Assembly (NCBI GenBank): GCA_030620115.1
Contig: JAUXFG010000220.1
Span: 1 to 5,383, forward strand
Source: Candidatus Fermentibacterota bacterium
GTDB taxonomy: Bacteria; JAFGKV01
DNA: 5,383 nt
Direction: 5' to 3'
How positions within the stretch are numbered: the stretch's first letter is position 1; each line of letters opens with the position of its first letter. The translations under genes and the position numbers were made by a program. The notes under the pieces are model-generated. The model searched no databases and was not told the origin of the DNA. It was given only the letters and a program-made list of their open reading frames with translations. Positions 2,543 through 5,329 of the stretch are shown here, in pieces.

Positions 2543-5329
2543 ATGTCACGACCTTCCAAATGCAACATCGCAAGTTTCTTTACCGTTCTATGCGCTCTAT
2601 GCGCTCTCTTGTGTCAGCTTTCCTTCGGTGCGAGCGAAACAACGGGACCTGAAGATCTTCTCCCCGTTCTCGGTCAGAACGAGAAGCAGTGGTCCCTCCC
2701 GCTGGATGCCGGTGAGCCCGACGAGTATCGTCTCCCGTTGGTGGAAAAAGCCATGCGCAATCCGTGGCGCAGCGCCGATCTTATCGATAGTCTCGCCACC
2801 CTTTGGCTGGAGGTCTCCCCGGCAACGGGAATCAATCTCTCATGTCAGCTGCGGGGCATCTTTCCGGAACCCACACGCCTCCAATCGGTTCCGGCCAAGC
2901 TGGAAGGGCTTCCCAAGGGATGGCCTCGCGACCTTGTGCGCGCGCTCTCGATTCTCGCCGCATGCTTCGAGGCCCTCCCGGATACGTGTGTTTCTGTTTC
3001 CTCGCAAGATATCGATGATATTCTATTCTGCCTTCTTCCCATGCCCAATGAACTGACTGCACTCCCTTGTGAACTAGCGCAACATGAGCGTACTGTGGAT
3101 GAAAGATCCAAACGCGTGTTCGAAACGGGAGGGGGCTTCCTGGGGGAATGCATGGCCCGGAATGGACAGATGATGTCCTGGGGTCTTGCCCGTGCGACAG
3201 AGGTGCTTCGTTCCATAGACCCGGAAGATCTGGAAAATCTTCACTCAGTGAAATCCTCGAAAGCTTCTGGTGATGTGGTGTTGGACAAGGAGTACCCATG
3301 GGGTTCACTTCTCGTCGGCGGCCCTGGAACCACGATCTATACCTCTTCTGCCACACTCATGGTGGATCTGGGTGGCGATGATATCTATCTGACGCCGGTG
3401 GGCGCCAGCAGTGAGGGAAATCCCAATTCGATGTGTTTGGATCTGTCGGGCGATGACTTCTACTCCGTGAGCGACACGGCCGGCATTGCGGCGGGAATCG
3501 GAGGCGTCGGAATCGTGTTGGACGTGGAAGGCGACGATGTGTATCGGGGCGGTGACGTGAGTCTGGGCGTGGGTATTGCCGGCATCGGCATGCTCTTTGA
3601 CCTCCAGGGGGATGATATCTTCTCCGGGGGCAACCTGACCCAAGGCGCCGCCGTGCTGGGCGCGGGGATTCTGGCGGATCTTCAAGGGAACGATCTCTAC
3701 GACGCCGGCTTCGCGGCCCAGGGATTCGGCTATGTGGGCGGAGCCGGCGTACTGTTCGATTCCGCTGGATCGGATAGATACCTGCTTGGCAGCGCCTACA
3801 CGGATATCTTGAGATATGAGGACCATGCACTTGCCATGGGACAAGGTTTTGGCTTCGGCCATCGCCCCACATACTCGGGCGGCATCGGCCTGCTCATCGA
3901 TGCGGAGGGAAACGACACCTATCGTGCCGACATATTCGGCCAGGGCGCTTCATACTGGTACAGTCTCGGCGGTTTGGTCGACTTCAAAGGCAACGACGTG
4001 TACGCCGCCTACCAGTATGTCCAAGGTGCCGGGGTTCATCTCTCCGTCGCCGCGCTGGTGGATAAGGAAGGGAACGACTCCTATTACGCCCGGGGCGTAG
4101 CCCAAGGCTGCGGTCACGATCTCGCAATCGGTTACCTGAAAGACCACAGTGGCGATGATTCATATGTGGCGTACGACCTATCCCAAGGAGCGGGGAGTGC
4201 CAACGGCATAGGCATACTCGACGACGGCGCGGGCAATGATAGTTACTCAGTAATCCGTTCGGTCAACTCGCAGGGATACGGCAACCGGAGGCGACATTAC
4301 GGTTCGCTTGGGCTTCTCTGGGACCGTGCGGGAGATGATGTATTCTCCTCGCCCGCCAGTAACGAAGCCTGGCAGCGAGGCCTCTGGGGCTTTGGGTGGG
4401 ATCGGGAAGACTCTGCTGATTCCCCCTCCATGGAGGCCGTCGTCTCTGATTCAATCACCCTGGAGCAAGCCATGGAAGCATGTGGAATCTTCTCGACCTG
4501 CGAAGCCCTGTTCATCGTGGCCGCAAGAGGAGAACCTCGTTTTGCCAAGGCTGCCGAGGCCGCAAGAGAGTCGCTTCTGGCCAAACAAGGCCGATCGATT
4601 CCCTGCCTGCTCGACGCACTTGGATCCCAACGACCGAGGGATCGGTGGACCCTGGAGAAGCTTTTCCGCGGGCTGGGTTCGCAGGGCTTAGACGCGCTCC
4701 TGGGGTTTTTCCATCGCGCGGGTCCTGATGCTGATCCACATGCCCTGGCAACCGGTCTATGGATCATCGGAAGGATGCTGGAACATGAAGGTGATAGTAT
4801 CTCTGTGCCGGAAGAGATGAATCGTCTCTTCTCGCTGGCGAACCACATAGACCGGAGGGTCCGATCTTCCCTGGCCTATGTCTTGGCCGAGTCAGACATA
4901 CCCGGGAGGGATTCTCTCCTCTTGCGTCTTGCCCGAGACTCCGCCGCCACCGTTCGGTTGGGAGCCGTCAGGGGGTTGGAGCGGATACCATGGGCCGACG
5001 CGGGGCCTGTACTCCTTCCTGCACTGGAAGACTCTTTTCCTGGCGTCGCCCATTGCGCAGCCACCATATTAGCCCAGCGTATCGACCAATCCGCCTCGGC
5101 GCTCACACAACTACACAGCGAACAGTCTCAGCTTGCCCTGCTCTCATCCCTCTCGCTCTTCCCCGAAGAGGAGCAGCGGAAACTCCTGGAACTCTGGGCT
5201 ACAAGCGGTGCCAGTGTCCTGGTGAAAGCAGTGGCAACTTCAAGACTCGGCCGCCCCTGCGACCACAGCGCCCTATCCCCCGATCTTCGAGCATTACTCT
5301 CCGCACTTGGAAACGCCCCTTCTCAATAG
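2543..5329 (+). CDS. Exported 27-residue GDD/GND-repeat and HEAT-like repeat protein
   Basis: The 928-aa product starts at ATG 2543. The frame is open upstream to TTG 2333, but that part is translated repeat. Residues 1-30 are a Sec signal (SRPSK, then a Cys/Leu-rich core, cleavage near SFGA-SET); no Cys is in a lipobox. Residues 31-260 are mostly helical and unrecognised. Residues 273-601 carry twelve copies of L-x-D-x-x-G-[DN]-D-x-[YF] with the repeat Asp at 275, 300, 327, 353, 379, 406, 453, 480, 507, 534, 561 and 594. The linkers often contain QGxG, suggesting a beta-solenoid. Residues about 655-905 are helical pairs with HEAT-like signatures such as RRVRSSLAYVLAE and ATVRLGAVRGL. No catalytic motif is seen. 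Likely role: periplasmic or surface scaffold or binding protein, perhaps metal-binding through the Asp-rich turns. The stop codon lies in a repeat arm shared with the leader. Certain as a gene; function unknown. Confidence 0.9.
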   Translation: MSRPSKCNIASFFTVLCALCALLCQLSFGASETTGPEDLLPVLGQNEKQWSLPLDAGEPDEYRLPLVEKAMRNPWRSADLIDSLATLWLEVSPATGINLSCQLRGIFPEPTRLQSVPAKLEGLPKGWPRDLVRALSILAACFEALPDTCVSVSSQDIDDILFCLLPMPNELTALPCELAQHERTVDERSKRVFETGGGFLGECMARNGQMMSWGLARATEVLRSIDPEDLENLHSVKSSKASGDVVLDKEYPWGSLLVGGPGTTIYTSSATLMVDLGGDDIYLTPVGASSEGNPNSMCLDLSGDDFYSVSDTAGIAAGIGGVGIVLDVEGDDVYRGGDVSLGVGIAGIGMLFDLQGDDIFSGGNLTQGAAVLGAGILADLQGNDLYDAGFAAQGFGYVGGAGVLFDSAGSDRYLLGSAYTDILRYEDHALAMGQGFGFGHRPTYSGGIGLLIDAEGNDTYRADIFGQGASYWYSLGGLVDFKGNDVYAAYQYVQGAGVHLSVAALVDKEGNDSYYARGVAQGCGHDLAIGYLKDHSGDDSYVAYDLSQGAGSANGIGILDDGAGNDSYSVIRSVNSQGYGNRRRHYGSLGLLWDRAGDDVFSSPASNEAWQRGLWGFGWDREDSADSPSMEAVVSDSITLEQAMEACGIFSTCEALFIVAARGEPRFAKAAEAARESLLAKQGRSIPCLLDALGSQRPRDRWTLEKLFRGLGSQGLDALLGFFHRAGPDADPHALATGLWIIGRMLEHEGDSISVPEEMNRLFSLANHIDRRVRSSLAYVLAESDIPGRDSLLLRLARDSAATVRLGAVRGLERIPWADAGPVLLPALEDSFPGVAHCAATILAQRIDQSASALTQLHSEQSQLALLSSLSLFPEEEQRKLLELWATSGASVLVKAVATSRLGRPCDHSALSPDLRALLSALGNAPSQ
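2587..2607 (+). repeat. 9-bp tandem repeat inside the signal peptide
   Basis: TCTATGCGC occurs twice head to tail (2587-2595, 2596-2604) and continues with TCT. It encodes the repeated Cys-Ala-Leu in the hydrophobic core of the signal peptide. Because the unit is nine bases, gain or loss of a copy keeps the frame and changes the core length by three residues. Confidence 0.7.
3359..4345 (+). repeat. Protein-level repeat array, 12 units of about 27 residues
   Basis: This stretch encodes residues 273-601 of the large protein. Successive repeat Asp residues are 25, 27, 26, 26, 27, 47, 27, 27, 27, 27, 27 and 33 minus-one-unit-free steps in the order: 25, 27, 26, 26, 27, 47, 27, 27, 27, 27, 33 for the eleven intervals. 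The 47-residue interval carries an extra segment of about 20 residues (around LLGSAYTDILRYEDH). Unit 6 has GSD; units 1-4, 10 and 12 have GDD; units 5, 7-9 and 11 have GND. Codons differ between units, so the array is old and not a recent DNA duplication. Confidence 0.85.

Follow-up and report, generated by a model that had tools for sequence, protein, structure and literature searches.

The closest solved fold to the protein described here is 3p4g, the Ca2+-bound, right-handed ice-binding helix of region IV of the RTX adhesin MpAFP/MpIBP, which is built from 19-residue units (PMC3492233, PMC6891781). Each of these units has one GND-containing acidic turn of the xGTGND type, and the sequenced MpAFP peptide IDAGTGNDEIYIK bears a GND-x-x-Y element (PMC3492233). 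Ca2+ that bridges Asp residues has been described in RTX rolls (PMC6891781), and MpIBP binds ice through a surface made up of a repetitive Thr/Asx array (PMC3492233). The adhesin itself has a mass of 1.5 MDa, and RTX type I secretion uses an uncleaved C-terminal signal. The RTX nonapeptide, GGxGxDxU (HemolysinCabind, PF00353), places two acidic turns in every 18 residues. Right-handed β-helices are also found in PL6 alginate lyases, the mannuronan epimerase AlgE4, and GH28 proteins, which have conserved polar residues on successive turns. Neither the right-handed β-helix fold class nor the GND turn is new.

The gene studied here is the one long plus-strand gene in the window, by which we mean the whole 5,383-nucleotide stretch that was analyzed (positions 1 to 5,383 of contig JAUXFG010000220.1, from a Candidatus Fermentibacterota bacterium). 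It occupies positions 2543 to 5329, with an ATG at 2543 and a stop codon at 5327−5329, as supported by homologs with 30−48% identity in the solenoid part, and encodes 928 residues; all features of the gene given below are on the plus strand. A Shine-Dalgarno-like AGGAGG, read from the sequence, is present at 2525−2530, 12 nt before the ATG. A mechanical call had begun the open reading frame at 2333; this start was rejected, the extra stretch being part of a dispersed repeat element. Residues 1−30 (2543−2632) form a plausible Sec signal peptide, recognized by eye from its hydrophobic core and its ending (...SFGA before SE). They are followed by a mainly helical domain (approximately residues 31−240; 2633−3262) that was assigned from AlphaFold2 (AF2) and DSSP and is kept in many homologs, by a β-solenoid domain (residues 241−622; 3263−4408), and by a C-terminal HEAT-repeat region (approximately residues 650−928; 4490−5326). 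The last assignment was based on a match to HEAT_2 (PF13646), with E 1.6e-5 and a best Pfam stretch of 791−857, and on homology to separate neighboring HEAT genes of relatives; the 928-residue protein scored 25.5 bits, just under the cut-off of 27.7, whereas the separate genes scored 104.8, 52.4, and 39.5 bits, far above it. From its sequence the solenoid protein is plausibly exported, and periplasmic or located on the cell surface. A crude signal-peptide test, which looks for a Met followed by a hydrophobic stretch, was passed by 75 of 101 homologs; this test is weak because 61 of 180 neighbor genes also passed a narrower version of it.

Within the solenoid, a motif scan identified twelve acidic-turn motifs of the form LxDxxG[DNS]Dx[YF] at positions 3356−4345, where shuffled versions of the protein gave a mean of 0.007 motifs and a maximum of 1. 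The motifs begin at residues 272, 297, 324, 350, 376, 403, 450, 477, 504, 531, 558, and 591, and their first Asp residues are 275, 300, 327, 353, 379, 406, 453, 480, 507, 534, 561, and 594; the array spans residues 272−603. All twelve motifs reported in the first-pass annotation were found, and its coordinates of 3359−4345 were correct to within one codon. The Asp residues at 453, 480, 507, 534, and 561 (units 7−11) are exactly 27 apart, as it had stated. Its description of every unit as GDD or GND holds for eleven units, the unit containing Asp 406 having GSD instead. Two other descriptions did not survive. The units had been called constant in length, but the spacings are 25, 27, 26, 26, 27, 47, 27, 27, 27, 27, and 33, a range of 25 to 47; and they had been called near-perfect, but their mean pairwise identity is just 29% for protein and 42% for DNA, with differing codons, and no DNA tandem array was detected at the motif region by TRF. 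Recent duplication of the units at the DNA level was ruled out by the same TRF result and DNA identity. Because of the low unit identity, the different codons, and the lack of a tandem DNA array, we conclude that the array, though not near-perfect, is genuine and old.

Searches with the protein and a domain profile gave nothing relevant for the solenoid domain in Pfam, NCBIfam, PHROGs, or the PDB sequences, and a profile of the 27-residue unit gave nothing in Pfam or the PDB, in agreement with the earlier failure to recognize a named family. When 49 homologs were compared with Pfam and NCBIfam, the solenoid domain was again without a family match, and phage, plasmid, and viral-contig searches returned no solenoid homolog. 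Yet a profile search found the solenoid domain in 67 of 386 genomes, about one in six, across many families; the domain also occurs in candidate phyla such as WOR-3 and Cloacimonadota. Relatives in WOR-3 and Cloacimonadota contigs are 27−41% identical, and those in other genomes are mostly 33−48% identical over the solenoid. Of the 107 homologs collected, 97 cover at least 340 of the 384 profile positions. The 47-residue spacing also recurs in relatives: unit 7 carries a conserved insertion of approximately 20 residues with a long loop that ends in RPxxSGG (residues 414−447; 3782−3883). Given the conserved length, the unit 7 insertion, and the unit-specific residues described below, the solenoid, as seen in these alignments, is a specific domain of fixed design and not a freely expanding repeat. 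Selection extends beyond the turn structure, to the fixed size, the inserted loop, and the unit-specific residues, a point missed in the first-pass annotation. No description of the family, its 27-residue DxxG[DN]D turn, or its fixed twelve-turn design appears to exist in the searchable libraries and papers; a literature search for a HEAT-linked β-helix or for a solenoid with GDD/GND units of 27 residues found nothing.

AF2 models were obtained for residues 30−645 (pLDDT 87.7, pTM 0.91) and 241−622 (pLDDT 92.0, pTM 0.92). Both predict a right-handed solenoid. Each unit makes one turn of it and contributes a conserved acidic turn, as had been anticipated from the repeats. DSSP analysis of the models gave three strands per turn: a long GxGxLxD strand, a strand after the acidic turn, and a short strand. 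AF2 is biased toward confident β-solenoids for perfect repeats (PMC11795689); such a bias is less likely here because the units are just 29% identical and a natural alignment was used. In structural comparisons with VIA-align, 3p4g was on top in the first run (Z 18.6), and in the second run 3p4g_B ranked first with Z 23.7 and an rmsd of 2.7 Å over 265 residues, all other matches being at or below 17.1. This precedent for the acidic turn, a Ca2+-bound RTX-adhesin β-helix, was missed in the first reading. Further right-handed β-helices among the matches were the PL6 lyase 7dmk (Z 16.1), AlgE4 2pyg (Z 15.6), and GH28 7b8b (Z 14.7). The left-handed γ-carbonic anhydrase, GlmU, and serine acetyltransferase also appeared in the VIA lists, and a left-handed helix was rejected; right-handedness was assigned because these left-handed hexapeptide helices align mostly at rmsd values of about 11−14 Å. 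The predicted model is a right-handed parallel β-helix of three strands per turn, and low rmsd values were obtained for right-handed helices only. Foldseek gave no significant match against the PDB (best E 0.26 and 0.6), and a comparison with the BFVD viral structures likewise gave none. Judging from these models, the solenoid domain is very likely a right-handed β-helix, and it would belong to the pectin-lyase-like right-handed β-helix fold class, an assignment that does not imply homology.

The resemblance to region IV of MpIBP lies in the predicted right-handed helix and in the single GND-containing acidic turn per unit. The two differ in unit length (19 residues there and 25−27, with one of 47, here) and in the turn itself, xGTGND there and DxxG[DN]D here, and they share 17% identity with no profile match to the solenoid. 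In relation to the RTX repeat, G-N-D-x-[YF] (or more generally G-[ND]-D-x-[YF]) corresponds to the second half of the nonapeptide, and the GG of the first half is swapped for D-x. The turn departs from the canonical GGxGxD in having Asp at position 4 and, in most cases, a residue other than glycine at position 5. There is one acidic turn per 27 residues here versus two per 18 in RTX proteins, and a plausible N-terminal signal peptide and C-terminal HEAT region in place of the C-terminal secretion signal. PF00353 matched neither the protein nor its isolated units, and a search of the protein's own genome with the same model missed the solenoid gene.

Across the homologs, three positions of D-x-x-G-[DN]-D, namely the opening Asp, the Gly, and the closing Asp, show 81−100% conservation in each of the twelve units, with most values exceeding 90%. 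By analogy with 3p4g, Ca2+ between successive turns is the likeliest reason for the stacked Asp residues, and the acidic turns are probably clamped in this way. One corner of each turn would then carry the acidic loop D-x-x-G-[DN]-D-x-[YF], and we infer that Ca2+ between successive loops would neutralize the stacked Asp side chains and, in the manner of RTX adhesins, lock the helix once it has been exported. If so, the GND turn of RTX adhesins would be in use beyond toxins and ice-binding. A different reading, which concerns the turns only and is compatible with any view of the conserved residues described below, is that the turns are not metal sites; instead, hydrogen bonds from Asp and Asn side chains would cap them and the domain would fold without Ca2+. 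Asn ladders are a feature of pectate-lyase-like helices, and the missing GG, the alternation of N and D at the +4 position (77:57 in sampled units), and the failure of the RTX Pfam model to detect the protein are all consistent with this reading. We consider it unlikely, however, because the Asp residues at 0 and +5 are so strongly conserved in every unit, because up to 24 stacked carboxylates would be costly without cations, and because the nearest solved structure binds Ca2+.

A second set of conserved residues is specific to single units and is not part of the repeat consensus. These are R441 of unit 7 (3863−3865), which is near-invariant; Y471 and W472 of unit 8 (3953−3958), near-invariant and strongly conserved, respectively; Y492 (4016−4018; 90% conserved) and H499 (4037−4039; near-invariant) of unit 9; H525 and D526 of unit 10 (4115−4120), of which D526 is near-invariant; and N554 of unit 11 (4202−4204; 73% conserved). 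R441, Y471, H499, and D526 were all present in 101 of the 107 homologs, from genomes of many families. By DSSP indices, these four residues occupy the same segment, just before the GxGxLxD strand, on successive turns, and they should therefore line one corner of the helix. In three divergent homologs (L020 from genome G006, L129, and L139) the scaffold is retained but H499 and D526 are both gone, and L129 also retains its HEAT part. Joint loss of the His and the Asp with retention of the scaffold is the pattern of an active site after function has been lost, and these proteins are possibly pseudo-enzymes or binding-only versions that could serve as natural controls. The R-Y-H-D row is very probably a functional site. 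To our knowledge it matches no named catalytic set, and no catalytic motif with these residues and this spacing is known in the PL6, AlgE4, or GH28 families.

The partner modules linked to the solenoid include HEAT and PDZ domains. Among 100 homologs with enough genomic context, 28 carry C-terminally fused HEAT repeats and a further 24 have them in an adjacent gene; these figures understate the total, because the script missed cases such as L066, L074, L097, and L101. In twenty 13-kb neighborhoods, each HEAT match outside the solenoid gene adjoined the solenoid gene. Several of the separate HEAT proteins start with signal-peptide-like segments. The HEAT_2 repeats here differ from the general family in being putatively exported and genetically tied to the solenoid. 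Another part of the solenoid family has an N-terminal PDZ domain instead of HEAT, and a PQQ-type propeller or an Ig domain is seen in individual members. N-terminal PQQ-type β-propellers were seen in L092 (by Pfam) and L028 (by eye), and the N-terminal extension of L013 contains a second region that by eye looks like a parallel β-helix. Apart from HEAT, no conserved gene neighbor of the solenoid gene, and none pointing to a glycan pathway, was found in the relatives examined. The R-Y-H-D row is conserved in the HEAT, PDZ, and other domain types alike; thus HEAT docking alone does not explain it. The row and the HEAT link likewise appear to be undescribed in searchable libraries and papers.

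As an overall account we propose, with our judgment evenly divided, a family of Ca2+-clamped right-handed β-helices with a catalytic or ligand-binding cleft, linked to HEAT or PDZ modules. The scaffold would be a right-handed parallel β-helix whose turns each comprise approximately 27 residues and three short strands, with the site formed by R441, Y471/W472, H499, and H525/D526, together with Y492 and N554, at the corner before GxGxLxD on turns 7−11. The conserved row would most likely bind and chemically process a ligand of elongated shape, for which a carbohydrate polymer is the most plausible candidate, and the C-terminal HEAT region, present as a separate neighbor gene in related genomes and replaced by PDZ in others, would act as a docking or regulatory module. 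Within this account, we lean slightly toward an enzymatic rather than a purely binding role for the site. The suggestion that the ligand is a carbohydrate is more tentative, falling somewhat short of an even chance, and it derives solely from the fold class and from the presence of PL6, GH28, and AlgE4 enzymes among the structural matches; the overall fold is alike (Z 14.7−16.1), but the solenoid has no sequence similarity to these proteins, and no Pfam or NCBIfam matches of their type were found in the 49 homologs. More tentative still is the full proposal of a widespread, undescribed family of exported enzymes with a Ca2+-clamped twelve-turn right-handed helix, an Arg-Tyr-His-Asp active site unlike those of known β-helix enzymes, and a HEAT or PDZ partner tied to it genetically. 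Placed on a Ca2+-type β-helix, the near-invariant R-Y-H-D row provides a concrete and testable active-site hypothesis for many exported proteins now called hypothetical.

The principal alternative to an enzyme is that the solenoid is a non-enzymatic platform, such as an envelope assembly or quality-control scaffold, on which the R-Y-H-D row recognizes a protein or peptide partner or the HEAT or PDZ module itself. Several observations would suit a platform: about half of the family has HEAT as a fusion or in an adjacent gene, and another part has an N-terminal PDZ domain; HEAT, PDZ, the PQQ-type propeller, and Ig are all interaction modules; and no pathway genes recur nearby. However, members lacking HEAT conserve the row just as well, L129 keeps its HEAT part despite having lost the His and the Asp, and so strict an R/Y/H/D set, from which the His and the Asp disappear together, points more to chemistry than to the docking of a protein; we regard a platform as rather unlikely. 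A purely structural or surface solenoid (an adhesin, ice-binding, or S-layer-like protein in the manner of MpIBP region IV), in which conservation would reflect Ca2+-dependent folding, is very improbable in spite of the ice-binding RTX helix being the best solved fold and the presence of GND turns, because the most conserved non-turn residues (R/Y/W/H/D/N) are non-repetitive and unit-specific, unlike the Thr/Asx array of MpIBP, because the protein has 928 residues and a plausible Sec signal peptide and is not a giant adhesin, and because unit number and insertion are fixed, unlike free-running adhesin repeats.

Several minor observations were made in the window and among the relatives. In the homolog L013 (G031:C26), tblastn showed one in-frame TGA and a profile search over a slightly shorter stretch showed none; the TGA is probably the gene's own stop codon. 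On the minus strand of the window, a gene at 1086−2210 encodes a TPR-repeat protein with a lipoprotein-like N-terminus and is followed by one at 434−1108 for an outer-membrane β-barrel (OMP_b-brl, E 2e-8); in the relatives examined, these two genes (434−2210) did not recur beside the solenoid gene. A tRNA-Leu gene (anticodon CAG) was identified at 271−358 on the minus strand by both ARAGORN and Rfam. The dispersed repeat is an imperfect palindrome found in the window at 2366−2530 and 5310−5353, with 54 matches across the genome. Its arms of 24 nt (2387−2410 and 2496−2519) are 92% complementary, and a partial copy of the element overlaps the solenoid gene's stop codon.
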